From: a virus
IMG/VR virus record: IMGVR_UViG_3300041411_000132
Coordinates: 1 to 48,935 of that record
Length of the DNA: 48,935 nucleotides
Reading direction: 5' to 3' (one strand)
In this document: positions 1,724 through 35,627 of the stretch, piece after piece
Layout of the letters: every line of letters begins with the position of its first letter
Position numbering within the stretch: position 1 is the first letter of the stretch
The notes under the pieces: generated by a model
What the model was told of the DNA's origin: nothing
Database searches by the model: none
What the model saw: only the letters and a program-made list of their open reading frames with translations
Program-made: the position numbers and the translations under genes

Positions 1724-3094
1724 ATGACTGTCGAAGTAATCGTTGCAAAAGAAGTCCATAACTGTGATAAGTTGATCGGCACTTTTCTTGATGAGCGTCA
1801 CTATGATCGCGTTATTGATAGCGACTGTGATTTCTACGCGCCTGCCGAAGTGACGCTGTTTGGTTCCGAAGAACAAACGGAAGAGAAATGTATTTTCAAA
1901 CTCCGTAAAGGCTTCTTCACCATCGAAGAACAACAAGCCGCGTACGAAGGTTTGAAAGATGGGGCAGCGCCTTCCTTTAACCGGGGCATGGCAGCTGGAG
2001 AACGCGGCGCGGGTGGCGGGGCGAGAGATTGGGTAACGGATCGTCAAGTTGATATTCTGGACCTCATGATTAATCCGGTTGATTCGTTGTTTGAAGTTTC
2101 TGACCTCGAACGTTTGGTTAACGAAGAAGATAAGAACGCTAAAGGTTCGGCACGCGGCTTGGCGTGGTTGACTTCAAAGATGACTGACTTCAACTTTGAC
2201 GACTGGGCTAAAGAAGCCTTCAAACTCCCGGATGAAATGCGACGGAAAGAAGCGACTCGGATTCAAGAAGAGTTCATCAGCAAAACGACTTATGCTAACC
2301 AAGTCTATAGCGGCGTAGCAGGTTGGTTTGATCGGTATCCGCGTATTCCTTACGGGCGCGCTACTTCGTATACCCAGCATAACCGGGAGAAGTTTGAGAA
2401 GTCTTATCCGCTCCTTCAGAAGCTCGCTGTTGGGTTTAAAGATCTTTTGCCTCACCGCTACGCAAATCAGATCGCGGCGTGTGCTAAAATTGATCCAGGG
2501 TTTTATATTCCTGAGACTCCATTTACTACGTTGACGATTAATAAGACCTTCCGTACCGCTGCGCATCTTGACGCTGGGGATTTGGCCGAAGGGTTTTCGA
2601 ATCTTTGCGTTCTGACGAATGGCGTTGGCTACGAAGGCGGTTATCTGGTCTTGCCTGAGTTCCGCGTGGCGATTAACATTCGGCCTGGGGATCTTTTGCT
2701 TATCGCTAACCACTCGGGGATTCACGGCAATACCGAGATTAAAGTTGAAGAAGGCGGCGAACGTATCTCGTTGGTGTGTTACTTCCGTGAGAACATGCTT
2801 CTGCTCGGTGAGAAGGTCTATGAAGATTGTCGTTATAACTTCGTTGAGGACTGTCGGAAAAACACCAATCACCCGTCGTGGCGTCCAATGTGGAACGGCG
2901 TCTATACTTCAATGTGGAGTTCGGAAGCGTGGTACGACTTCCTTGCGAATAGCCTGGGGATCGATTACTTGAAGAAGTATCACCCGGAAGCGGGACCGCG
3001 TAATCAATACTCCGATAGCTGTTCGTACATTACCGGAAGTGGCGAGAAGTACGACTGTAGTAAATGTAATCAAGTTTGTACTGGAGCAATCTAA
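1724..3094 (+). CDS. TET/JBP-like 2-oxoglutarate/Fe(II) dioxygenase, predicted thymine or cytosine hydroxylase on DNA
   Basis: 456 aa. The core at about 275-355 reads as a double-stranded beta-helix of the TET/JBP type: HLD (H281, D283) as the proximal iron ligands, EGGYLVLPE at 304-312, RPGDLLLIANH at 320-330 with H330 or H334 as the distal ligand, and R347 in ERISLV as the expected 2-oxoglutarate carboxylate ligand. Family members hydroxylate the methyl group of thymine or 5-methylcytosine in DNA. The N-terminal 200 residues are not recognised and include a Gly-rich linker (about 92-100). The C-terminus is Cys-rich (C433, C445, C448, C452) and may bind metal. First gene of an operon whose later genes fit downstream processing of hydroxymethyl-pyrimidine, so thymine is the likelier target. 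The fold is fairly sure; the substrate is inference. Confidence 0.78.
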   Translation: MTVEVIVAKEVHNCDKLIGTFLDERHYDRVIDSDCDFYAPAEVTLFGSEEQTEEKCIFKLRKGFFTIEEQQAAYEGLKDGAAPSFNRGMAAGERGAGGGARDWVTDRQVDILDLMINPVDSLFEVSDLERLVNEEDKNAKGSARGLAWLTSKMTDFNFDDWAKEAFKLPDEMRRKEATRIQEEFISKTTYANQVYSGVAGWFDRYPRIPYGRATSYTQHNREKFEKSYPLLQKLAVGFKDLLPHRYANQIAACAKIDPGFYIPETPFTTLTINKTFRTAAHLDAGDLAEGFSNLCVLTNGVGYEGGYLVLPEFRVAINIRPGDLLLIANHSGIHGNTEIKVEEGGERISLVCYFRENMLLLGEKVYEDCRYNFVEDCRKNTNHPSWRPMWNGVYTSMWSSEAWYDFLANSLGIDYLKKYHPEAGPRNQYSDSCSYITGSGEKYDCSKCNQVCTGAI

Positions 3095-3781
3095 ATGTGT
3101 GGAGTAATTGGCGTTCATTTAAAAGAGTACACCAGAGAACTCGGAGAACTCGTTAGACGCGTTTTTCGGGAATCTGAAGTTAGAGGGATGCACGCCACCG
3201 GCCTGACCTACTTCCAAAATGGAAAGTTGACGACGATTAAGGAGCCTGTAAAGGCTTCTGACTTTATCAATACCATCAACTTTGAAACGATGCTCCATGA
3301 TGGTGGACTTTTTCTAATCGGGCATTGCCGTTACTCTACTTCAGATTTGGAGTATAATCAGCCTATGGAATCGGAAACGATGTGCCTCGTTCATAATGGC
3401 GTCATTACTCAGGAACCGAAATACAACTGGCGGTACGACGTAGAAGGCGGGAATGACTCAATGTTACTCCTGGCTTCGCTGCTGGAAGATAAACTTCCTC
3501 ATGAGGAATGGCCGGATGCCTCGATGGCGTTTTGTTCGCTGAACGATCAAGGAGAAATGCGCGTCTTTCGAAACGGGAAACGCCCGCTGTACCGTTCGTG
3601 GTTAGACGATGAATCGGTGTTTATTACCTCGACTCAAGATATCGCTAAGCGCGCCGGTCTGTTTAATACGAAGGAAGTAGCTAATCTGGAAGATCAGACG
3701 TATTATACCGGATCAGCTGCGGAGTCCGTTTTTTGGGAACGCAACAACGTAGATTTGCAGGAGAAGAAAATTGTACGATAA
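3095..3781 (+). CDS. Class II glutamine amidotransferase (Ntn-hydrolase)
   Basis: 228 aa. Starts MCGVIG, so Met removal leaves Cys2 as the N-terminal nucleophile of a GATase II domain. RGMHATG (30-36), GHCRYST (76-82), NQP (88-90) and HNG (100-102) are the usual glutamine-binding and oxyanion segments. The protein is little more than the glutaminase domain, so it must pass ammonia to a partner; the obvious candidate is the amidoligase that starts inside its last codons (11-bp overlap). The ATG directly follows the dioxygenase stop codon, suggesting coupled translation. Confidence 0.92.
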   Translation: MCGVIGVHLKEYTRELGELVRRVFRESEVRGMHATGLTYFQNGKLTTIKEPVKASDFINTINFETMLHDGGLFLIGHCRYSTSDLEYNQPMESETMCLVHNGVITQEPKYNWRYDVEGGNDSMLLLASLLEDKLPHEEWPDASMAFCSLNDQGEMRVFRNGKRPLYRSWLDDESVFITSTQDIAKRAGLFNTKEVANLEDQTYYTGSAAESVFWERNNVDLQEKKIVR

Positions 3782-4640
3782 GAAAACGTTTACCTACGGC
3801 GCTGAACTGGAGTTTGGCGATATTGATCGCCGTCTGGTTATCCCAGCAGAGTTGGGGAAGTGGGAATATTCGGAGACGGATGTTATCAACACCGTGGAAC
3901 CTTATAAGAACGTGGCCTGCGATCCGCTCGGGCTGTCTCCGCCGTTTGGTGGGGAAGTTAATACTATGCCGACGAAGACCTACGAAGGCCAGGTAGAAAA
4001 GGTTAAGGACATCATCCAGTTCTTCCGGGATAATGGAAACGAACCAACCCCGTCCTCAGTTTCACATCTACACGTACACGTCCATGTTCCTGGCCTTATG
4101 GAAGACGTTGACGCGTTGAAACGTCTGGTGATGTATATCCGTAACAATCAACAAGCGGTCGTCGATAACTGTCACCAATACCGCGATGTAGCTTCGATGG
4201 CTGGAGTTAAAGGCGTTAAGCAATACATGAAGTTGGACTGTGGTCGCTTGATGCCTGAGTACATGAGCCGAAACATTATCGAGTTGACTTCGAGCTTCGA
4301 ACACTTTATCAAGCTCCACTGCGCTGGAAAAGATGGGGTATCTATGGGACGCCCTTTCAGGTATGCTATCAACACGTACTGCCTGAAACACACGAAAACG
4401 ATTGAGTTCCGTTGCTTCCGCGCTACCGTGAAGGAAGAAGAGGTACGTGATTGTTTCCGTTTCGTTGAAGCCTTTATCGACGCAGCCTTGAACGGCGGTC
4501 CTGACGTTGGAGAAATTTTGTTCGAAGGTGAGTTCAAGTTTCCACCGTTTGTTTGGAACCGCGATGAATTCCTGGGCTGGCAGAATACGAAGTACGATAA
4601 GGAACGCGGGAAGAAGGAAAGGAGTTATGTGCAACTATGA
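3771..4640 (+). CDS. Amidoligase (COOH-NH2 ligase family, glutamine synthetase-like fold)
   Basis: 289 aa, TTG start with AGGAGA about 8 nt upstream, overlapping the glutaminase gene. Motifs of the putative amidoligase family: YGAELEFG (9-16, acidic metal/ATP ligands), GGEVNT (60-65), the His-rich strand HLHVHVHV (99-106) and, late in the protein, EFRCFRATV. The family is predicted to use ATP to join a carboxylate to an amine and is known to sit beside GATase II and GNAT genes in phages, exactly as here. In this operon it could build or extend an amide-linked side chain on a modified base; modification of cell wall or another peptide is an alternative. The assignment rests on motif match. Confidence 0.82.
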   Translation: MYDKKTFTYGAELEFGDIDRRLVIPAELGKWEYSETDVINTVEPYKNVACDPLGLSPPFGGEVNTMPTKTYEGQVEKVKDIIQFFRDNGNEPTPSSVSHLHVHVHVPGLMEDVDALKRLVMYIRNNQQAVVDNCHQYRDVASMAGVKGVKQYMKLDCGRLMPEYMSRNIIELTSSFEHFIKLHCAGKDGVSMGRPFRYAINTYCLKHTKTIEFRCFRATVKEEEVRDCFRFVEAFIDAALNGGPDVGEILFEGEFKFPPFVWNRDEFLGWQNTKYDKERGKKERSYVQL

Positions 4641-5182
4641 ATTATGAAGATGTTCGAGAAGTAACAAGAGAGCGGTTTCTAGCCGCTATGACCGCTGAGA
4701 AGGGCGACCGCTTTGCGAAGACGTTCGTGTCTAAGGCCGATACACAAAGTCTCTGGGATCGCGCTGTGGGTCTGTTTACGGACGACGGCGAATTGATGGG
4801 TTGTATTATTACAACTCATTCGAAGCGCGAACCAGTTGTAACGAATCTTCAACTACTTCATACCTTCGTTAAACATCGCGGCAAGGGCGTTGGGCGAGTT
4901 CTTGTTGATTATGCTTTGTTTGGAAGTCGGGTTTGGGGCGCTGAATACTTCCGGGTTAGCTCGGAGAAGGATGCTATCGACTTTTACAAGAAGTGTGGGT
5001 TTGAGTTCGCTGGTCGCCAAAAGTCCGGTTGCCAACTTTCGATCTTTCGTTGGGAAGGTGCTGGTATTAGAGTTCACGACTACACTGACCCAGTAATTCG
5101 CGCTGCCGTCTTCCGTAAAGGTAAAGGTGGTTGTGTGGAAATTTTCTTTGAAGATCCGGTCCAGACGTTGGAAACCCTCTGA
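4637..5182 (+). CDS. GNAT family N-acetyltransferase
   Basis: 181 aa, overlaps the amidoligase stop by 4 nt. The acetyl-CoA pyrophosphate-binding loop is RGKGVGRVLV (81-90), preceded by the beta-4 strand LQLLHTFV and followed by the FYKKCGFE segment typical of the GNAT C-terminal half. The last 40 residues, past the GNAT core, are not recognised. Its place between the amidoligase and the base-transferase-like protein suggests acetylation of the amine-bearing side chain made by the pathway; a protein substrate cannot be excluded. Confidence 0.87.
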   Translation: MNYEDVREVTRERFLAAMTAEKGDRFAKTFVSKADTQSLWDRAVGLFTDDGELMGCIITTHSKREPVVTNLQLLHTFVKHRGKGVGRVLVDYALFGSRVWGAEYFRVSSEKDAIDFYKKCGFEFAGRQKSGCQLSIFRWEGAGIRVHDYTDPVIRAAVFRKGKGGCVEIFFEDPVQTLETL

Positions 5183-5183
5183 T

Positions 5184-6197
5184 ATGGACTTTAGAGAAAA
5201 GCAAAACAGGCGGGAATCGTTCATTCAATACTTCGCACTTTCCCTGCACTTTAAGGATTGTGACCCAGCGGTTTGGACGACGAACTATCTAAACGAACGC
5301 TTTGAACATAACATAGAACAACGTTATTGGCTCGCGTGGCTCTATGGGAACACCTATCAACTTCCGACTTCCTGGGTTTTGATGAATGAGTTCCCCGACT
5401 TCGAGCTGTGTTCGGTTTCGCGCATTACCGACTGGAGCACCGAGAACTATAAACGACTTCGGTATCAGACGGACACGAAGTGGAACAAAGGTCATCTTCC
5501 GGTGATGTTCGAATCGTACAAAGCGTTTATCGGCGATAAGCTACAACACGAACGCTTCGAGGCGCTGTGTACCGGGGATAAGTTTGAGAACTTCAACCGG
5601 GTCTGGGAAGAGACGATCAACGGGCTTCATAAGTTCGGACGCTATTCGACGTGGTTCTACCTCCAGCACCTTAAGCAAACTTGTGGCCTGAATATCGAGC
5701 CGTCTGACCTGAAGCTCAACGACTACAGCGGTTCGAGAAGCCATCGCAACGGGCTCCTGCTCGCGCTAGGGCGCGATGACGAGTATGACGCTAAGCTTAC
5801 CAAGGTTCAGTACGCAGACCTTGAGAGCGAAGCCAAGAGCATCCTCGATGAGTTTAACTTTCGCTTCCCGGACTTGAAGGCCGATAACTTCTACTTCGAA
5901 ACCTGTCTTTGTGCTTATAAGAAACTCTTCCGTAAGCGCGACGGGCGGTATATTGGTTATTACCTAGACCGCCAGTGCGAAGAGATTCAAAAGGCCATGG
6001 GCGACGGGTGGACTGGGATTCAGTGGAATGTTCTTTGGCAGGCGCGGGACGAAGAACTGCAAAGTCGCGTTTCGAATCGGAGTGGCGTCGATAAACCGAA
6101 GATGGAAATCTTTATGGACTCCGGGATGATTCTTCACGGTGATGAGTTATTCGATTGCCTTCCAGTTCAATCTCGCGTATCATTATTCGACTTTTGA
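5184..6197 (+). CDS. Amino acid:DNA transferase / alpha-glutamyl-putrescinyl-thymine pyrophosphorylase-like protein
   Basis: 337 aa from the ATG at 5184, one base after the GNAT stop; the frame is open further upstream but only inside the GNAT gene. All-helical appearance. The segment EQRYWLAWLYGNTYQLP (about 44-60) followed by MNEFPDFEL resembles, from memory, the aGPT-Pplase/ADDT families predicted by Iyer and colleagues (2013) in phages with hypermodified thymine, where they replace the phosphoryl group on 5-hydroxymethyluracil with an amino acid or polyamine. A second conserved-looking patch is GSRSHRNGLLLALGRDD. Recognition is by pattern, not alignment; the flanking dioxygenase and kinase strengthen it. 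Confidence 0.62.
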   Translation: MDFREKQNRRESFIQYFALSLHFKDCDPAVWTTNYLNERFEHNIEQRYWLAWLYGNTYQLPTSWVLMNEFPDFELCSVSRITDWSTENYKRLRYQTDTKWNKGHLPVMFESYKAFIGDKLQHERFEALCTGDKFENFNRVWEETINGLHKFGRYSTWFYLQHLKQTCGLNIEPSDLKLNDYSGSRSHRNGLLLALGRDDEYDAKLTKVQYADLESEAKSILDEFNFRFPDLKADNFYFETCLCAYKKLFRKRDGRYIGYYLDRQCEEIQKAMGDGWTGIQWNVLWQARDEELQSRVSNRSGVDKPKMEIFMDSGMILHGDELFDCLPVQSRVSLFDF

Positions 6198-6211
6198 TGA
6201 GGATATATGAA

Positions 6212-6763
6212 ATGAAAAAAGTTTTAGCTATTGGTGGTCGCCCAGGTACGGGCAAAAGTACGTTAATGAAAGAGTTCATGACTCAGTTTACCGACTGGGA
6301 ACGTCAGAAACCAGTTCCTCTAGTAGATATCGAGTATTCAGAGGCTGGCGACATAGCGGTCATCGGTAAGTACGACGAAGGTGAAACTTTCAGCGGGACG
6401 GATCGTTTGTCGATGGCCGTTCAGCCGAATGCTCTGGAGTTCGTAAGGGATTGGCGCGCGCCGTCCAAAATCATCTTCGAAGGGGATCGTCTTTTTAACG
6501 GTTCCTTTCTTCGCGACCTGATGGACCTGAAAGACGTTGACCTTCATGTGATTCTTTTGAATGCGCCGCAAGACATCCTTACGGCTCGCTACATCGAACG
6601 CGGTACGGATCAGACGGAAAAGTTTCTCCAAAGCCGGGCAACGAAGTACAGCAACCTGTTGATGTCGTTCGACCTGATGGACGTGATTCACGAACGTCGA
6701 AACATGAATCTGGATGATCAGAAAAAGATTATCGCCGAAATAAAAGATTTCTTAGAAATTTAA
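6212..6763 (+). CDS. P-loop kinase, candidate 5-hydroxymethyluracil DNA kinase
   Basis: 183 aa from the ATG at 6212, which has GAGGAT about 8 nt upstream; an ATG at 6197 in frame overlaps the previous stop and is the alternative. Walker A is GGRPGTGKST (8-17). A Walker-B-like strand is KIIFEGDRLF, and LHVILLNAP followed by RYIERGTD looks like the adenine-binding/lid region of small-molecule kinases. In hypermodifying phages a P-loop kinase phosphorylates 5-hydroxymethyluracil in DNA to activate it for the transferase. This is the last gene of the operon, and a new promoter starts 9 nt after its stop. A nucleotide or polynucleotide kinase is the alternative. Confidence 0.65.
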   Translation: MKKVLAIGGRPGTGKSTLMKEFMTQFTDWERQKPVPLVDIEYSEAGDIAVIGKYDEGETFSGTDRLSMAVQPNALEFVRDWRAPSKIIFEGDRLFNGSFLRDLMDLKDVDLHVILLNAPQDILTARYIERGTDQTEKFLQSRATKYSNLLMSFDLMDVIHERRNMNLDDQKKIIAEIKDFLEI

Positions 6764-6771
6764 AAATCTTC

Positions 6772-6800
6772 TTTACTTTCTTTCTTGTGGGGTCTACAAT
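6772..6800 (+). promoter_or_regulatory. Predicted sigma70-like promoter
   Basis: TTTACT at 6772-6777, 17-nt spacer, TACAAT at 6795-6800. GGTC and GACC flank the -10 box. It starts the unit that runs from 6851 through the nucleotide metabolism genes. Confidence 0.7.
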
Positions 6801-8342: not shown

Positions 8343-9032
8343 ATGCTGGATACTTTTGATTTTCTGTCTCAATACAAAAACGTTGTTGAGTGGAACGCGG
8401 TAGCGCGTAACGGCGTACACGTCTTTAGCCATGACGCGATTGTTCGGCAATCGGAATACACCCGCTCCGAAATCCAGGAAACTCTGGACGCTATCGCGGC
8501 TGACGACTCGGTGGAGTTTTTGGACGGCGTGGCAGACATCTTCGTAACCATGACCTACAAACACTTCCTGGCGCAAAACGGCGACGTTGATGATGCGGAA
8601 ATTGTTAAGGCGATTGAGTTCATGTCGTCGGAAGGCGTAATGACCTACGAAAACGATCACGAACTGGCGCGGACCCACCTGAAAGAAATCGCGGATATCG
8701 TGATGATTGAAAACCAAAGTCCGGTGTTTGATACCAGTTCCCTGTGCGCGCTGATCGAACTGATGAACCTGACTGAGTTGTATTACGATGTTAATGTCAT
8801 GGATGTTGTTAAACATATCATGGACTCGAACTGGTCCAAGTTTCCAAAGGTCAGTCAAACTAACGTCGAAAAAGAAGTTGCGTATATCGCCGCGAAGAAC
8901 CCAGACTTCAAAGATTTTGTTGGTACTGTAAACGAAGCCTCGGGCGTAGTTGTATATCGTACCGATAACGGCGTTGGTAAAATCATGAAACCTTCGACCT
9001 TCTGGAACGCTAACTGTCAGGTCTTCTTGTAA
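8343..9032 (+). CDS. MazG-like nucleotide pyrophosphohydrolase
   Basis: 229 aa, helical. The N-terminal half carries the all-alpha NTP-PPase signature: EIQE (43-46) and EFLDGVADI (58-66) supply the E-x-x-E and E-x-x-D metal ligands. The C-terminal part, with SSEGVMTYENDHE and a late SGVVVYRTDNGVGK segment, looks like a further helical repeat ending in a small conserved tail. These enzymes hydrolyse (d)NTPs or alarmone-type nucleotides to monophosphates. A role in excluding canonical or unwanted dNTPs next to the base modification operon is inference. Confidence 0.68.
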   Translation: MLDTFDFLSQYKNVVEWNAVARNGVHVFSHDAIVRQSEYTRSEIQETLDAIAADDSVEFLDGVADIFVTMTYKHFLAQNGDVDDAEIVKAIEFMSSEGVMTYENDHELARTHLKEIADIVMIENQSPVFDTSSLCALIELMNLTELYYDVNVMDVVKHIMDSNWSKFPKVSQTNVEKEVAYIAAKNPDFKDFVGTVNEASGVVVYRTDNGVGKIMKPSTFWNANCQVFL

Positions 9033-9033
9033 T

Positions 9034-9273
9034 ATGGCCGCGATTAAGAGCACTAAGATTCAGGCTATTAATCTTGAATTAACTTTGGACGAAGAAGAGG
9101 CGAACTTTCTGGCGGCCATAGTTCAAAATCCTTCTTACGATGGAGAAACCCAGAAGATTGCGGAGTTTCGTAAGTCCATCTTTGAAGCTATTAAAGGACC
9201 AACACGAACTCCCGGCTTACGTCAAGATGGTATACACGGTAAAGAACCGCGCCCAACTTTGATGGGAATGTAA
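9034..9273 (+). CDS. Hypothetical protein, 79 aa
   Basis: ATG one base after the previous stop. Contains a short strand (INLELTLDEEEANFLAAIV) and a helix (AEFRKSIFEAI), then a Pro/Gly-rich tail. It resembles small phage proteins of unknown role. Last gene before the terminator at 9294. Confidence 0.65.
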   Translation: MAAIKSTKIQAINLELTLDEEEANFLAAIVQNPSYDGETQKIAEFRKSIFEAIKGPTRTPGLRQDGIHGKEPRPTLMGM

Positions 9274-9293
9274 CTTTAAAGGAAAGTCCAACT

Positions 9294-9320
9294 AAAGGCC
9301 TGGGGAAACTCGGGCCTTTT
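9294..9320 (+). terminator. Rho-independent terminator
   Basis: AAAGGCC (9294-9300) pairs with GGCCTTT (9313-9319) around a GAAA-containing loop and ends in TTTT. It closes the nucleotide metabolism operon before the DNA polymerase. Confidence 0.8.
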
Positions 9321-9345
9321 CATTTAAGCCGGAAAGAGTTACACT
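9317..9345 (+). promoter_or_regulatory. Possible promoter of DNA polymerase operon
   Basis: TTTTCA at 9317-9322, 17-nt spacer, TACACT at 9340-9345. Weaker than the other copies; its -35 box is the U-tract of the preceding terminator. Confidence 0.35.
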
Positions 9346-9373
9346 AACAACTTATTCAAAAGAGAAACTTTTA

Positions 9374-10972
9374 ATGAGTCAAGAAATTCTATACACCTTC
9401 TATCAAAACCTCGGTAATAACATCCTCCTGAAGTATCGTAAGAACGGTAAATCTTACACTAAGAAAATCGACTTCTATGAACCTTCACTCTATCTCCCAA
9501 CTGATGGAGAAGGTGACGCTGAAACTATTTTTGGTAAGACGGTTAAGCGTAAGAAGTTTGACAGTATCTCGGATTGTCGAACATTCACTAAGAAGTTCGC
9601 GGACATGGACGCGATGGAGTGGAGCGGGAATTCCAACTACGCGAACCAGTTCATCATCGAACTGTATAAGGGACAAGTTCCAGTCTTCGACCCTAAAAAC
9701 ATCCGCGTTGGCATTCTCGATATCGAAGTGCACACGAAGACTTTCCCGGAAGCCGCAAAGGCTGAGAAACCAATTAACGGCATTACCATCTACGACAACT
9801 TTACCGATAAGTATTATTGTCTTGGAAACGCGGAGTACGTCCGCGAACATCGTTTAAGTTTGGGCCAATCTCAGGAAGAAGTGTTTGCTCCGATGTACGT
9901 CCACGACCCTGAAGATAAGGACGTGGGGACGCTTGATGTTGAGTATCATGAGTTTGCTGATGAAGTGTCGTTTCTTAAGGCGATGGTACGTCACTTCCGT
10001 GACTTCGAATATGATCTGACCTCGGGCTGGAACTCCGAAAGCTTCGACATGGTGTACATCGTAAAGCGCTGCTACCAAGTTATAGGCGAAGAACTGACGA
10101 AGACGTGTCTTAGTCCGTTTAACCGCATATCGTTCCGGGAAGGCGTGGATAAGTTTGGTAAAGAAGAGCTTAAGGTGGATATTGTCGGGCTACCGCACCT
10201 CGACTACATGAACGCTTATAAGAAGCACATGTTTGATCCGCGTGACTCGTACCGTCTGGATAACATCGCCTTCGAAGAGTTGGGTGAGCAGAAGTTAGAT
10301 TATGAAGAAGAAGGTTCGTTGTATAACTTGCACCTTCAGAATCCTCAGAAGTTTATGGCGTACAACGTTAAAGACGTTAAGTTGATTAAACAACTTGATG
10401 ACAAGTTAGGGCTATTTGCCTTGACGTACACTTTAGCGTATTATTGTATGTGTAACTATGAAGACACTCTTGGAACGGTTAAGCCTTGGGAAATGCTGAT
10501 CGCCAAGCAACTGTATAACGATGGGAAAGTTCCACCGTTCTCAGCGCCGCGTAAAGAGAAGCAAGACTTTGAAGGGGCGTTCGTAAAAGAAGTTATTCCC
10601 GGTCTTTGGGAATGGTTGATTGCCTTTGACTATAACTCTCTGTATCCTATGACTGAGATTCAATGTAACATCGGTCAAGAGACTTATGTTCCACGTCACC
10701 AACTTCCAGCGGCACTTCGTAACTACAAATCCAAATACAATGTTGATGATCTTGTAGAGGGTAAAGTTGATCTTTCCGCTCTCTATGATACAGACTTGTC
10801 GATGACGGCTAACTTCGAATTTTATAGAAAGAACACTAAGAGTATCATCGCCTTGATTAAAGATGATTTGTACTCGAAGCGGAAAGTTTATAAGAAGGTA
10901 ATGCAGAAGGCCCAGACGCTTCAGGAAAACATTAAAGAAGAAATGAAACGCAGAGGTTTGGTGGTTGTATGA
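9374..10972 (+). CDS. Family B DNA polymerase, N-terminal part (exonuclease and palm motif A)
   Basis: 532 aa. Holds the 3'-5' exonuclease: ExoI LDIEVH (D116, E118), ExoII SGWNSESFDM near 216-226, ExoIII YNVKDVKL near 330. Palm motif A, FDYNSLYPM, is near 418 (the DxxSLYP signature with its metal-binding Asp). It ends in a charged helix that corresponds to the fingers, just before where motif B should come. Motifs B and C are in a separate gene starting at 11129. The two products must associate to give one polymerase. Split gp43-type polymerases are known in some T4-like phages. Confidence 0.95.
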   Translation: MSQEILYTFYQNLGNNILLKYRKNGKSYTKKIDFYEPSLYLPTDGEGDAETIFGKTVKRKKFDSISDCRTFTKKFADMDAMEWSGNSNYANQFIIELYKGQVPVFDPKNIRVGILDIEVHTKTFPEAAKAEKPINGITIYDNFTDKYYCLGNAEYVREHRLSLGQSQEEVFAPMYVHDPEDKDVGTLDVEYHEFADEVSFLKAMVRHFRDFEYDLTSGWNSESFDMVYIVKRCYQVIGEELTKTCLSPFNRISFREGVDKFGKEELKVDIVGLPHLDYMNAYKKHMFDPRDSYRLDNIAFEELGEQKLDYEEEGSLYNLHLQNPQKFMAYNVKDVKLIKQLDDKLGLFALTYTLAYYCMCNYEDTLGTVKPWEMLIAKQLYNDGKVPPFSAPRKEKQDFEGAFVKEVIPGLWEWLIAFDYNSLYPMTEIQCNIGQETYVPRHQLPAALRNYKSKYNVDDLVEGKVDLSALYDTDLSMTANFEFYRKNTKSIIALIKDDLYSKRKVYKKVMQKAQTLQENIKEEMKRRGLVVV

Positions 10973-11142
10973 GAAAATTTGTGTGTCCGTACTGTGGGGA
11001 GGACCATACTGAAGAGGACATGAGGAAACACTTTCTGTTCTTTCACGAAATGGATTCATCCCCAAGTACCTTCCAAGAGTATATCGAAAGATTTTCGATC
11101 TTAGGTCTAGCCAGAATTGTAGGAGAAGATGACATTGAGTAG
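10969..11142 (+). CDS. Small C2H2 zinc-finger protein, 57 aa, between the two polymerase genes
   Basis: ATG overlaps the stop of the polymerase N-part (ATGA), and its stop lies inside the start of the C-part. The sequence has C6-x2-C9-x11-H21-x4-H26, a C2H2 finger spacing, followed by an acidic helical tail. It is in a different frame from both polymerase pieces. It could be a DNA- or protein-binding accessory protein translated by coupling, or the remnant of an element that split the polymerase. Tight overlaps on both sides argue that it is expressed. Confidence 0.62.
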   Translation: MRKFVCPYCGEDHTEEDMRKHFLFFHEMDSSPSTFQEYIERFSILGLARIVGEDDIE

Positions 11143-12232
11143 TCTGAGTGAGTTGTCCGATGAAGAACTCATCAAAATGTATAAGCAAGCTAAGTTGGAC
11201 GAAGTAATTAACTATAACCTGCAGCTTGCGATGAAGTTGTTGCTGAACGGCGGTTATGGTGCCCTGGCTAACATCTGGTTTCTCTATTACATGTTGGAGA
11301 ACGCCGAAGCGATCACCCTGACCGGCCAGGCGGTTAACCGTTATGTCAATACCCGGCTAGAGAAGTTCCTACAGAAGTTGTCGAAGACCGATAAGCCGCT
11401 TTGGATCATGGCCGACACGGACTCGGGTTACTTCTGTTTCGATTACATCGTTAAGTTGATGTGTCCCGACGAAACTGATAAGCAAGTCATTACCGATAAG
11501 CTCGATACGTTCGTTAAGCAGATCGTTCAGCCGAAGATCGATGAGTTGACCGCCGAGTTTGCTGTTATGATGAACTCGCTGGAAAACCGGATGGTGTACG
11601 AGCGGGAAGTAATCGCTGATACCACTATCGTCTGCGCGAAGAAAAAGTATGTGATGTCGGTGATCGATAACGAAGGCGTGCGTTACAAGTCGCCGAAGTA
11701 CAAGATCACTGGGATGGAGTCGAAGAAGTCTTCAACGCCGGGTTGGGCGCGGGACTTCCTGAAAGAAGCTTATATCTTAGGTCTAAAGGGTGATGAGAAG
11801 GCTCTGCAAGCTCGCGTATTCGAAATTAAAGATGCGTTCAATAAGCTACCTATCTCCACCATTGCGATCCCTAGGGGCGTGAATAACATCAAGGAATACA
11901 CGGACCCAGCGACCGGCCTTTACATCAAAGGAACACCGAAACACGTTAAGGCCGCGATCATCCATAACTGGTTGGTTAAACAGAAAGGTCTGGACGTTGA
12001 CCCGCTTCAATCCGGGAACAAACTGAAGTTCGTTGAGTTGAAGAAACCTAACCCGATTAATCAGGAGGTTATTGGATTCGAAACTCACTTGCCGAAAGAA
12101 TTTGAACTTGATAAGTATGTTGACCGGGAAGTGACGTTCAATAGCGCCTTCCTTAATCCACTTCAAATCTTCCTGAATCCGATTAAATGGAACCACGAAG
12201 AGACGATAAGCCTTGAGGATTTCTTTTCATGA
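11129..12232 (+). CDS. Family B DNA polymerase, C-terminal part (motifs B and C, thumb)
   Basis: 367 aa, ATG at 11129 just after AGGAGA. Motif B is KLLLNGGYGALAN (K36, N40, Y43), where most relatives have NSxYG; here Ser is replaced by Gly. Motif C is ADTDSG (D96, D98). The KKKYVMS segment near 170 is the usual KKRY-like thumb-proximal motif. It starts with about 30 residues of helix ahead of motif B that may form the interface with the N-terminal part. Overlaps the next gene by 4 nt. Confidence 0.95.
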   Translation: MTLSSLSELSDEELIKMYKQAKLDEVINYNLQLAMKLLLNGGYGALANIWFLYYMLENAEAITLTGQAVNRYVNTRLEKFLQKLSKTDKPLWIMADTDSGYFCFDYIVKLMCPDETDKQVITDKLDTFVKQIVQPKIDELTAEFAVMMNSLENRMVYEREVIADTTIVCAKKKYVMSVIDNEGVRYKSPKYKITGMESKKSSTPGWARDFLKEAYILGLKGDEKALQARVFEIKDAFNKLPISTIAIPRGVNNIKEYTDPATGLYIKGTPKHVKAAIIHNWLVKQKGLDVDPLQSGNKLKFVELKKPNPINQEVIGFETHLPKEFELDKYVDREVTFNSAFLNPLQIFLNPIKWNHEETISLEDFFS

Positions 12233-12495
12233 TCAGTAGATATTTGGATACACACGGAACGTTTTATCAACTTGATAACCAAGCCTCCGGGCTTGGGGCC
12301 AGGATGATCGAATTAAACCGATCTGACTGTTACATGATCCATCGGTATATCTCGGAAGAGTTCGACTGCATCTGTGAAGACTTAACTTGGAAAAACGGTT
12401 TGGTCTTCAATACTGAAACCTTCTCTCACAAAGACATGTACGAAAACTTGTTTAAACTAGAATTCAAAGGGGTGCAACTTGGACAACAATATTAA
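12229..12495 (+). CDS. Hypothetical protein, 88 aa
   Basis: Not recognised. Short alpha/beta protein with a Cys pair (FDCIC). It overlaps the polymerase stop (ATGA) and the dNMP kinase start, so it is cotranslated with replication genes. Confidence 0.7.
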   Translation: MISRYLDTHGTFYQLDNQASGLGARMIELNRSDCYMIHRYISEEFDCICEDLTWKNGLVFNTETFSHKDMYENLFKLEFKGVQLGQQY

Positions 12496-13231
12496 TTTTG
12501 GTATTAGTGGTATCGCCGGTTCGGGTAAAGATACTTTTGCGGACATGATGCTTAACGAACTTCATCAGCGCGGCCTTAGCGAATATCACAAGTATTCCTA
12601 CGCCGGTCCGCTGAAGCGTTTCGCCCAAGATGTCTTCGGCTTTAGCGACTTCGACGTATATGACCAAGCCGGTAAGGAAGTTCGCTTTACACGAACTTAT
12701 AATAAAGGTTACTTTCGCGACCGTTTCGAGTTAGCATTGACTGAGTTACTGCTGTTGTCGAAGAAGGATAAAGAAACGTTGGACGATCTGTGGTATCGCT
12801 TCCTAGAGGTGCTACACGATCAGATCGTACCTAACTCGCTCACCGTCGCTATCGTCGGCTGGTTCAACTCTGATAAGGCTCTGATCACGTTTAACACCAG
12901 TCCTCGGATCATCCTCCAACTTCTTGGAACTGAGTTCTTCCGCGATAGTATTTCGGAAAGCTTCTGGACTGATATTGCTCCGGCGAAGAACGTTGTTATT
13001 GCGGACATGCGGTTTGTTAACGAGTTGGATTACATTCTTGAAACGGGTGGTGTTCCAATTGGAATCATCGGTCGCGACGAAGACACTACCAAAGAATCTG
13101 GACATGCTTCGGAAAACGTTGGTCCAGTGATTAACCGTTGTAAGTACATTATCAAGAATGATGGAACTCTCGAAGCTCTTCGAGCTAAAGCTATTGAAAT
13201 TATTGATATCGAATTGGGGAAAGTAGTATGA
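12479..13231 (+). CDS. Deoxynucleoside monophosphate kinase (T4 gp1-like)
   Basis: 250 aa, TTG start with AAAGGGG about 8 nt upstream. Walker A is GIAGSGKDT (8-16), followed by a KYSYAGPLKRFAQDVFG segment typical of phage dNMP kinases and, late, RIILQLLGTEFFRD and VVIADMRFVNE. It phosphorylates dNMPs to dNDPs for phage DNA synthesis, including modified dNMPs in some phages. Lies between polymerase and recombinase genes. Confidence 0.85.
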   Translation: MDNNINFGISGIAGSGKDTFADMMLNELHQRGLSEYHKYSYAGPLKRFAQDVFGFSDFDVYDQAGKEVRFTRTYNKGYFRDRFELALTELLLLSKKDKETLDDLWYRFLEVLHDQIVPNSLTVAIVGWFNSDKALITFNTSPRIILQLLGTEFFRDSISESFWTDIAPAKNVVIADMRFVNELDYILETGGVPIGIIGRDEDTTKESGHASENVGPVINRCKYIIKNDGTLEALRAKAIEIIDIELGKVV

Positions 13232-31032: not shown

Positions 31033-31107
31033 CAGATAGTAGCTCAGTTGGTAGAGCAAGAGTGACGGCACTCTAGGCCATCGGTTCAAATCCGATCTAT
31101 CCGCCCT
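31033..31107 (+). tRNA. tRNA-like element with abnormal anticodon arm
   Basis: D-arm GCTCAGTTGGTAGAGC and T-arm ATCGGTTCAAATCCGAT are perfect and the total length is right. The acceptor CAGATAG/CTATCCG has an A-C clash at pair 2-71, there is no encoded CCA (CCCTT follows), and the anticodon stem AGAGT/ACTCT encloses only 6 nt (GACGGC) with no U33. Identity cannot be assigned. Possible pseudo-tRNA or a deliberately odd tRNA. Confidence 0.5.
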
Positions 31108-32476: not shown

Positions 32477-33970
32477 ATGAAATATCCTTCCTGGTCTTAT
32501 AAGCCAAATATCCGCAAACGCCAAGTCGTTCTAACCTCCCGAGGCTGGGTTGTTAGCGAAACAGGTGAACTTCTCGTTTCAAACGTTATGCTACCAAAAA
32601 GCATTCAGCGGTACTTCGATTTAATCTCACCTCCTACTATCGACAACGATTCCGTTAATATCAATTACGAAGGAACAATCATCGAACTTGATTTCGAAGA
32701 CCTTCAAAAGTTTATTGATAATCCAGAAGATTTCATGGAAGCTGAATTGATTGTTCTGTCGAATAATCGTATTGCAATCCTCGGCGACAGTATTACGAAT
32801 CAATGTTCGACTACAACTAACGGCACCGAAAACTACGGGTACATCAGTAACGCCCTACGGCGCGCCAAGCAACGTTTTGTCTTTAAACTAACCGACAACT
32901 ACGGAGTTGGTGGAGACACTACCGCTATGATTAAGGTACGCGTTCCTAACGTTATTGCGTCGGGCGTGGGTACTTGCGTTATTATGGGCGGCACTAACGA
33001 CCGTGGTACAGCGGCTATGACTGCTGAACAAACAATCAATAACTTGCGCGACATGCGGAACGAATTAAACGCGGCTGGAATCTTCGTTGTTATTATGACC
33101 CCGATGCCACGTGGTGATTCGCTGTTTCCTGAGAAGTTTTTGACTGGTACACAACTTGCTTACCATCTTGAAGTTCGTGACCGTATTCTTTCGGAACTTC
33201 CAAGTAACAATTGTAAAGTAGTTGATAACTGGCCGTTGCTGCTAGATGAAGCGACTGGCGCGGCGAAAGGAATTAAACAAGGTTACACGCACGACGGTCT
33301 ACACCCAAGAACTGTTGGTGCTTACTATGTTGGATATCAACTCGGCGATGTACTAAACACTATGACACCAGCAGAGATTGTTATGCCTGTCGCAGATAAC
33401 GTTTATGTTGCAGTGACTAACGTTACCGGTGATGCTTCGGTTAACCCGTTGTTCCTCGGAACGGCTGGTGTCCCAGGTACGGGTGGAAGTGGAGTTCTGG
33501 CCGATGGTTGGGGTGGAACGAACGCGACCGGAACGACTGGTGTAACACGAACTTATTCGAAAGTTGGTTCTTGGCAACAAATCGTTATCGGTGGGATCGC
33601 TGCTACTTCGGCGGCTGCTCTTGACTTGTTACGTCAAATCAGTCTTCACACTAAATGCGTTCCGGGTGCTACTTACGAAGCCGTTTGCGAATATGAACTT
33701 GATGCTGGAGCAACTAACGTTCTCTCCCTACAACTTGGAGCAACGGTAACAGCGGTGTCGGGCGCTATCGCACTTTGGGATGGAGATCGTTACGATAACG
33801 CCAGTCCGCTTCAGCCGGTAGCAACTACTGGCTTTATTCGGTCACCTCGGTTCGTAATGCCGGCTGATGCTACAGATGTTCGTCTGAGACTCTCTAGTTA
33901 CCTCTCGACTTCGGGTGCACCTTCCGCGACCATCCGTGTTAGGAAGATGACTCTTCGCCAAGTGCTTTAA
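32477..33970 (+). CDS. SGNH-hydrolase protein with shared N-terminal virion-type domain, 497 aa
   Basis: Residues 1-86 (MKYPSWSYKP..., RGWVVSETGELLVSN, NYEGTIIELDFEDLQKF) are nearly identical to the start of the 34044 protein and recur more distantly at 45512 and 45820. Residues 97-300 are an SGNH/GDSL esterase: block I GDS (S105), block II G145, block III GGTND (N174), block V DGLH (D273, H276). The rest is a beta-rich, Gly/Thr-rich C-terminal domain, like carbohydrate-binding parts of tail proteins. A likely role is de-O-acetylation of surface polysaccharide by a virion-bound enzyme; the virion location is inferred from the domain layout. Confidence 0.82.
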   Translation: MKYPSWSYKPNIRKRQVVLTSRGWVVSETGELLVSNVMLPKSIQRYFDLISPPTIDNDSVNINYEGTIIELDFEDLQKFIDNPEDFMEAELIVLSNNRIAILGDSITNQCSTTTNGTENYGYISNALRRAKQRFVFKLTDNYGVGGDTTAMIKVRVPNVIASGVGTCVIMGGTNDRGTAAMTAEQTINNLRDMRNELNAAGIFVVIMTPMPRGDSLFPEKFLTGTQLAYHLEVRDRILSELPSNNCKVVDNWPLLLDEATGAAKGIKQGYTHDGLHPRTVGAYYVGYQLGDVLNTMTPAEIVMPVADNVYVAVTNVTGDASVNPLFLGTAGVPGTGGSGVLADGWGGTNATGTTGVTRTYSKVGSWQQIVIGGIAATSAAALDLLRQISLHTKCVPGATYEAVCEYELDAGATNVLSLQLGATVTAVSGAIALWDGDRYDNASPLQPVATTGFIRSPRFVMPADATDVRLRLSSYLSTSGAPSATIRVRKMTLRQVL

Positions 33971-33986
33971 ATTTATCCCCTGTACA

Positions 33987-34025
33987 TAGTGATAGTAAAC
34001 GCTAAATAAAGGTTTACTATCACTA
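33987..34025 (+). promoter_or_regulatory. TAAATA late-promoter-like motif in a perfect 14-bp hairpin
   Basis: Bases 33987-34000 pair perfectly with 34012-34025 around the loop GCTAAATAAAG, the same loop as at 32437. The arms differ in sequence from the first copy yet stay complementary, which argues for a selected hairpin. It lies 18 nt before the ATG at 34044. Confidence 0.62.
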
Positions 34026-34043
34026 AGTGTTGGAATAATAAAA

Positions 34044-35627
34044 ATGAAATACCCTTCTTGGTCATACAAACCACGCATTCGTAAGCGGCAAGTAGTTCTC
34101 ACTGCGAGAGGTTGGGTTGTTGTTGAGACCGGTGAACTTCTAGTCTCCAACGTCAAACTCCCAAAAAGTATTCAGCGTTACTTCAAATTAAATACAGTCC
34201 CTTCTATTGATAACGATTCCGTCAATATCAACTACGAAGGCACAGTTGTTGAATTAGATTTTGCAGACATTCAAAAGTTTATCGATAATCCAGATGACTT
34301 CTTGATAGTTCCAATTCCTGACCCAACTACTCTGAACTTCGCCTCGTCACAGTTTGTTTCTGGGTTTACGGGTTCAATTAGTACGACTAAGAACGTTGCG
34401 CGCATCTATGCACGCGGCGCGGTGACATTATGGTCTGGTTTTATTAGTGGCACCGAAGCTAAAATGACCGCACCGTCTGACTTCGGAGATAACGCCGGGT
34501 CTTTACAAGTTGCTATTGATGGCGGAGCTTTCACTAATGCTCCAAATACTGCTTCTGTATATACGCTATTCTCGGGTCTTGCGCACGCGAAACGATTCGT
34601 AGAAGTTCGTTGGGTAATCCAGATGGCAGATGCGCCATATATCCCAGCATCTGGAAATGTCCTAGAAGTTACGGGCCAACCACCAACTTTACAAACTTTA
34701 TCTAACAAGGTAGAGAACGGCGCCAATTCGGCTACTGGGTTCTACTCTGGCGCGTTGATTCCGAACAACGCTACCTATACACCAGCTCTTCAGGCAACGT
34801 CTGGGACCGTCTATGGGTCTAACGTCGGTTCGATCAAAATCAAAGGCGCCTTCTCTAAACTGGTTGTAACAGTTAGCGGAATTCGCAAAATCGGTGTAAG
34901 TAAGAACGGCGGCGCGCCAGTATTCTATTCGATTGCTGATGAGAATGATTCGCCTGTCCGTGCTATCGTAGTTCCATGCGACGGATCAACTTCTACTTAC
35001 AACGTCTGGGACAGCGGCAACATCCGTAACAGTGGCGGACACTTTTCAGTAGCAGGCGATTCAACCTTATTAGACGTTGGTGTTCGTCGGCGCCTACATC
35101 AGTTCGGCGATTCGATCACCGCAGGATCTGGACCGGGTGCCTCGGGCGTTGACGTTGAAACGATGTCTGTTGCGGCAGCTCTAGGTTTCACCGGTACTAC
35201 CATTGGAGTTGCCGGTCAAACTATCGCCGGTTGTAAGACGATGCTTGATACCACGCTACCGCTGTTGACGGTAGAGTCTACCGACGTAGCGATTTTGGCT
35301 ATCGGCGGAAACAGCGCGGCTGGAGGAATTGACGCCGCTAAGAAAGCTGATTACCTGGCTTGTATTAACAAGTTGCTGGCGAAGGGATATAGCAAAGTTA
35401 TTTGTCGCGGCATCTTACCAACGCCGGACGGGTCTGACACGCGCTCCATCTATAACGTCGAGCTTCAATCGGTCGTGACGGCTTTGGGTAACCCTAACGT
35501 GGTCTGGATGGATACCGCTACTTGGATCGGCTACAACACCCTCGATAATACTCACCCAACCTCAGTTGGATACGTTACAATCTACGGATACGCCTTAGCA
35601 GCCGTCAGAGCTATTCTAGGTCTTTAA
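34044..35627 (+). CDS. SGNH-hydrolase protein with shared N-terminal virion-type domain, 527 aa
   Basis: N-terminal 86 residues nearly match the 32477 protein. A middle beta-rich part (90-350) is new and has no match in its neighbour. The SGNH domain is C-terminal here: GDS at 355-357 (S357), G391 in AGQT, GGN at 421-423 (N423), DNTH at 501-504 (D501, H504). The anchor is the same, but the enzyme domain comes from a different branch and position. Probably a second virion esterase acting on host glycans. Codons and base composition resemble those of its neighbours. Confidence 0.82.
   Translation: MKYPSWSYKPRIRKRQVVLTARGWVVVETGELLVSNVKLPKSIQRYFKLNTVPSIDNDSVNINYEGTVVELDFADIQKFIDNPDDFLIVPIPDPTTLNFASSQFVSGFTGSISTTKNVARIYARGAVTLWSGFISGTEAKMTAPSDFGDNAGSLQVAIDGGAFTNAPNTASVYTLFSGLAHAKRFVEVRWVIQMADAPYIPASGNVLEVTGQPPTLQTLSNKVENGANSATGFYSGALIPNNATYTPALQATSGTVYGSNVGSIKIKGAFSKLVVTVSGIRKIGVSKNGGAPVFYSIADENDSPVRAIVVPCDGSTSTYNVWDSGNIRNSGGHFSVAGDSTLLDVGVRRRLHQFGDSITAGSGPGASGVDVETMSVAAALGFTGTTIGVAGQTIAGCKTMLDTTLPLLTVESTDVAILAIGGNSAAGGIDAAKKADYLACINKLLAKGYSKVICRGILPTPDGSDTRSIYNVELQSVVTALGNPNVVWMDTATWIGYNTLDNTHPTSVGYVTIYGYALAAVRAILGL

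Follow-up and report, generated by a model that had tools for sequence, protein, structure and literature searches.

The window analysed here is a 48,935-base (48.9 kb) IMG/VR virus fragment (record IMGVR_UViG_3300041411_000132), from a T4-like phage; among its genes are those for DNA polymerase, a UvsX/RecA-like protein, a DnaB-like helicase, rIIA and rIIB. When the phage collection was searched with the window, no near-identical phage and no close relative were found. Six open reading frames (ORFs) at positions 1724-6763 lie on one strand, adjacent to or overlapping one another, and form a cassette that is proposed here to hypermodify thymine in phage DNA. The initial annotation had listed their products, in the order in which they lie, as a TET/JBP dioxygenase, a class II glutaminase, an amidoligase, a GNAT, an ADDT-like protein and a P-loop kinase. 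ORF calls and Pfam searches bear out the whole set, each product falling in the family named or in a close one:

1724-3094, + strand: TET/JBP oxygenase, proposed to convert thymine to 5-hydroxymethyluracil in DNA (Pfam Tet_JBP, 83 bits, cut-off 34.9)
3095-3781, + strand: class II glutaminase, proposed ammonia source (GATase_6, 33 bits, cut-off 27; N-terminus MCG)
3771-4640, + strand: amidoligase, proposed to form an amide bond on the side chain (TTG start behind GGAG; Amidoligase_2, 21.3 bits)
4637-5182, + strand: GNAT acyltransferase, proposed to acylate the side chain (Acetyltransf_7, 38 bits; travels with the amidoligase)
5184-6197, + strand: ADDT-type amino acid:DNA transferase (Pfam ADDT PF18724, 79.4 bits, cut-off 26.2)
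6212-6763, + strand: P-loop kinase, proposed 5-hydroxymethyluracil DNA kinase (Ploopntkinase3, PF18751, 36 bits, cut-off 27)

The profile of the ADDT family detects the ADDT of phage ViI at 1e-51. The structural model of the cassette protein, with a mean predicted local distance difference test score (pLDDT) of 89.8, matches the 5-phosphomethyl-deoxyuridine (5-PmdU) glycinyltransferase gp46/PUGT of phage PaMx11 (8z2m) with a Z-score of 19.1 and a root-mean-square deviation of 3.6 over 256 residues. The next matches were a queuine salvage enzyme (Z 10.4) and then 8-oxoguanine DNA glycosylases, with scores near 9; viral matches to the fold include proteins named amino acid:DNA transferase. The proposed activity of this protein is to place an amino acid on 5-PmdU in DNA. 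Its description as ADDT-like in the initial annotation, now backed by both the Pfam domain and the PaMx11 fold, thus withstood a search meant to overturn it. A sequence search for solved relatives of the ADDT, the amidoligase and the glutaminase returned none. Gp55 of phage M6 was considered as an ADDT homologue and rejected, as it belongs to Pfam HMUDK_hel and has no sequence similarity to the cassette ADDT, even though the fold comparison does lead to PaMx11 gp46.

The kinase carries a Walker A motif of the form G-x-P-x-T-G-K-S, and all 23 members of its family match Ploopntkinase3. This was also its best match when it was compared with the curated 5-hydroxymethyldeoxyuridine (5-hmdU) DNA kinase families PF18748 and PF18747, outside which it falls; the M6 and ViI kinases match these two families. 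Profile comparison nevertheless links it remotely to gp54 of M6, which Pfam does place among the 5-hmdU DNA kinases (hhalign probability 95%). The earlier view of this protein as a hypermodification kinase therefore holds as regards its kinship to gp54, while sequence comparison places it in a sister family of the Pfam 5-hmdU kinases and not within them. The protein also matches PHROG phrog_800, named terminase small subunit, a label that M6 gp54 shares and that looks like a misannotation. Kinases of the cassette family are labelled terminase small subunit in public phage records as well.

Two scans of viral contigs yielded 76 TET loci and 80 ADDT loci. The core was found in one order across about 100 related loci, which argues that it is a real module; the usual gene order is DNA polymerase, RecA, DnaB, TET, glutaminase, a tailoring slot, ADDT and kinase. 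Where 6 kb or more of sequence precedes an ADDT relative (29 loci), TET lies upstream on the same strand in 26 and the glutaminase in all 29, and the kinase is present in 55 of the 55 ADDT loci having enough downstream sequence. The cassette genes co-occur more often than by chance, in a count of loci that are not independent of one another. In a tree of the TET proteins, some of whose joins have long branches, cassette-bearing loci are spread over several branches, which suggests that TET or the module has been exchanged. Within the stretches fetched, only 24 of the 76 TET loci have an ADDT, so TET works in other settings too. A scan of genome contigs gave only two distant contigs of actinobacterial metagenome-assembled genomes. 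Subsets of the cassettes add a ParB-like protein (u6), a low-molecular-weight phosphatase (u17) or a second 2-oxoglutarate (2OG)-Fe(II) oxygenase (u7, PF13759). The last lies between TET and the glutaminase in L007, L010, L072, L109, L117 and L124.

The iron site of the TET/JBP oxygenase (H281-x-D283, H334) and its 2OG-binding R347 are conserved in at least 97% of 87 relatives. Public phage records call the TET/JBP proteins of DLP6, Cr30 and S-CBWM1 (L001, L002 and L004) SNF2 DNA repair proteins. Characterised phage TETs reportedly act on 5-methylcytosine (Burke 2021). Gene content makes thymine, and not 5-methylcytosine, the likelier substrate of the cassette enzyme. No C5-cytosine methyltransferase was found in the window or in 52 ADDT-bearing records, most of them fragments. 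A thymidylate-synthase-family gene, such as would encode a dUMP hydroxymethylase, was likewise not found in the window, itself a fragment, or in 12 of the 13 ADDT-bearing records tested; the exception, Cr30, has a 373-bit match, as expected of an ordinary synthase. ThyX is present in all five ADDT contigs of 126-171 kb (four at 132-159 bits, one marginal). ViI, M6 and PhiW-14 show the reverse: each has a divergent thymidylate-synthase-family protein (51-66 bits), and TET is absent from all three. The missing methyltransferase, the presence of ThyX but not of a dUMP hydroxymethylase in the large relatives and this reversed arrangement together point to thymine. This is consistent with ordinary synthesis of thymidylate and later oxidation of thymine once it is in DNA.

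I consider it probable that the cassette directs post-replicative hypermodification of thymine, as the initial annotation had proposed. The ADDT domain with its PaMx11 fold, the kinship of the kinase to M6 gp54 and the gene content favouring thymine all support this reading. TET would oxidize thymine in phage DNA to 5-hydroxymethyluracil (hmU), and the kinase would then add a phosphate to the hydroxymethyl group to give 5-phosphomethyluracil. The ADDT would next displace the phosphate with an amino acid, joined through its amino group, to form an amino-acid adduct, whose side chain the GNAT and the glutaminase/amidoligase pair would acylate and amidate, or extend. The finished base would hide the DNA from host nucleases and, as the initial annotation supposed, might be new. 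Phosphorylation of hmU followed by substitution is a known route (PMC6449724), and the published 5-hmU DNA kinase phosphorylates hmU in DNA, not 5-hydroxymethylcytosine (PMC6457204). The thymine substrate, the order of the steps, the attached amine, the targets of the amidoligase and GNAT, the final base and its protective role are what I infer from the observations: gene content and order, conservation, catalytic residues, the ADDT fold match and the absence from larger relatives of other sources of hydroxymethylpyrimidine. Several points weigh against this interpretation. The chemistry of the cassette is predicted from sequence, from which the substrate specificity of a TET cannot be read, and genes that seem to be missing may be encoded elsewhere, as the window and most other records are fragments. 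Ploopntkinase3-like kinases also accompany TET and a C5 methyltransferase in Melnitz-3. Finally, a different pathway, co-transcribed with the core, could be the one in which the glutaminase, amidoligase and GNAT act.

In the glutaminase, C2 (the N-terminal Cys nucleophile), R79, N101-G102 and D121 (the glutamine site) are invariant in 23 relatives, as expected of class II. The amidoligase scores just below the Amidoligase_2 cut-off of 22, and 9 of 13 family members match that domain (best E 1.3e-6). Its AlphaFold2 model (mean pLDDT 86.9) best matches glutathione/glutamine synthetase, glutamate-cysteine ligase and YbdK, with Z-scores of about 10-11 for YbdK and for glutamine synthetase/glutamate-cysteine ligase (GS/GCL). 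Domain and predicted fold together place it in the Amidoligase_2 / GS-GCL superfamily; E12, E14, H101, H103, E212 and R214 are invariant. The slot between glutaminase and ADDT is occupied either by the amidoligase and small GNAT, as in the window, or by a single, larger protein (u2) that matches GNAT weakly, right at the cut-off (20.7 bits). Glutaminase, ADDT and kinase occur together in 72 loci; u2 without a window-type amidoligase is found in 53 of these, and the amidoligase without u2 in the other 19. The amidoligase and small GNAT are an exchangeable unit, and the glutaminase is constant. The mutual exclusion concerns the window-type amidoligase: L142, L145 and L149 have u2, and a divergent Amidoligase_2 protein (u16) lies behind the kinase, in full in L142 and L149.

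Because the glutaminase is constant and the amidoligase optional, the glutaminase cannot serve the window-type amidoligase alone. It needs a partner other than that amidoligase, and this partner might be the ADDT itself: ammonia from the glutaminase would then yield 5-aminomethyluracil, on whose amine the amidoligase or the GNAT would form an amide. GNAT-type proteins occur in both cassette types, and the loci without a glutaminase have more distant ADDTs (24-31% identical). On the other hand, the known enzymes of the ADDT fold, such as the PaMx11 glycinyltransferase, take amino acids, and another ligase may be encoded elsewhere. I regard the ammonia route as unlikely, though it is the best placed of the alternatives. 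An extended version, in which this route and an exchangeable amidoligase/GNAT slot adding amino acids or acyl groups would generate a previously undescribed family of amide-linked bases, is a similarly tentative proposal.

It is more doubtful still that the DNA is modified by TET, ADDT and kinase only, and that the glutaminase, amidoligase and GNAT merely share the operon and have the cell wall or some metabolite as their target. GNATs are versatile, and phage amidoligase/GATase pairs have been proposed as cell-wall modifiers (quoted in PMC10580990). Yet essentially every cassette has its glutaminase between TET and ADDT, GNAT-type proteins hold the slot in both cassette types, and the two amidoligase relatives that the phage collection contains, from the unrelated phages Simon and Vibrio phage 2.275.O, both sit in base-modification clusters. 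In Vibrio phage 2.275.O (L167, 6887-12095), the amidoligase relative is located by a 7-cyano-7-deazaguanine reductase, a queuosine protein, a GTP cyclohydrolase I and an N-terminal nucleophile hydrolase, which the glutaminase profile detects at 1.6e-6; an amide-decorated deazaguanine is a possible product of this cluster.

A cytosine pathway, in which TET would oxidize 5-methylcytosine and the kinase and ADDT would build on 5-hydroxymethylcytosine, is the least probable reading: Melnitz-3 does have an adjoining C5 methyltransferase, TET and related kinase, but it has no ADDT, no such methyltransferase was found in the window or in the 52 ADDT-bearing records, most of them fragments, and uracil derivatives are the substrates of the ADDT and 5-hmdU kinases known so far (PMC6449724, PMC6457204). 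The Melnitz-3 genes (L165, 2451-6531) encode, side by side, an HhaI-like C5-cytosine methyltransferase, TET, a 427-residue protein and the kinase, possibly a cytosine branch that uses a related kinase.

Two further features flank the cassette:

1625-1649, + strand: hairpin terminator closing the upstream unit (nine-pair stem, T-rich tail; a consensus match only)
6772-6800, + strand: promoter-like site just downstream of the cassette (matches the consensus at 9 of 12 positions; such sites are no commoner than in shuffled sequence)

The initial annotation had placed the six genes behind one promoter, a claim that was not borne out: the scan gave no site at the start of the cassette and no excess over shuffled sequences. 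Elsewhere in the window, the DNA polymerase is encoded by two ORFs 156 bases apart (9374-12232), while most relatives have a single ORF of about 840 codons. At 31033-31106 lies a tRNA-like gene for which ARAGORN reads just two anticodon bases and names no amino acid, and at 32477-35627 there are two large lipase-like neighbours (lipase PHROG 6102; GDSL lipase domain).

Under the favoured reading of thymine hypermodification, 5-hydroxymethyluracil seems to be formed in place by a TET, rather than supplied as a nucleotide, in a large set of T4-like phages, and the base seems to be completed by amide chemistry. If this is true, the action of a phage TET on thymine becomes directly testable, the cassette offers new enzymes for DNA labelling, and the exchangeable tailoring slot would amount to a natural library of base chemistries for evading host nucleases. 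Hypermodification started by TET/JBP was reportedly predicted by Iyer et al. in 2013, and Lee et al. in 2022 reportedly mention many gene permutations in viral metagenomes. The amidoligase/glutaminase version of the cassette may have been noted earlier in the literature.

Among known systems, the thymidine pathways of ViI, M6, PaMx11 and PhiW-14 share with the cassette the ADDT/glycinyltransferase fold, a 5-hmU kinase relative and an amino group that displaces the phosphomethyl (PMC6449724). They differ, in ViI, M6 and PhiW-14, in that 5-hmdU is made as a nucleotide by a thymidylate-synthase-family enzyme without any TET, whereas the cassette has a TET and that enzyme was not found with it. 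The combination of TET, ADDT and kinase is already published for Rhodococcus phage Tonitrus (PMC11955845), whose five-gene system has a TET-like protein, an ADDT (aGPT-Pplase2) and a Ploopntkinase3 kinase in a row, and whose authors list a 5-hmU DNA kinase in the cluster; its sequences are remote, it has a ParB-like gene, and no glutaminase or amidoligase was detected in it. In Caulobacter phage Cr30, homologues of TET, ADDT and the kinase all occur within 9 kb, but the genes are scattered, no glutaminase or amidoligase was detected nearby and the phage has the thymidylate synthase mentioned above. The nearest relative of the cassette TET (57%) is found in a related phage (L006), where the genes that come after TET are those of a TET-associated glycosyltransferase (PF20691) and a cytidylyltransferase-like protein (8980-12709), a different fate for the oxidized base; no ADDT was found on this 145 kb contig.

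Other systems resemble the cassette in its amide-forming part. Phage Simon (L168, PQ683277, 5474-11540) has an M6-like thymidine-hypermodification cluster in which an amidoligase lies by a 5-hmdU-kinase-like gene and an HMUDK_hel protein; it differs from the cassette by a thymidylate-synthase-family gene in place of TET and by an additional flavin adenine dinucleotide (FAD) oxidoreductase and low-molecular-weight phosphatase. The pairing of amidoligase and phosphatase recurs in the TET cassettes of L157, L158 and L009. In CmoA/CmoX/CmoY of phage S-B43, amide ligation onto a modified DNA base, by CmoY, is experimentally established (PMC12783734). That system, however, relies on cytosine carboxymethylation and a different, asparagine-synthetase-like ligase, and no C5 methyltransferase-type gene was found with the cassette. 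Set against these systems, a TET start joined to an amide-forming finish looks like a new variation on a known core of DNA camouflage.

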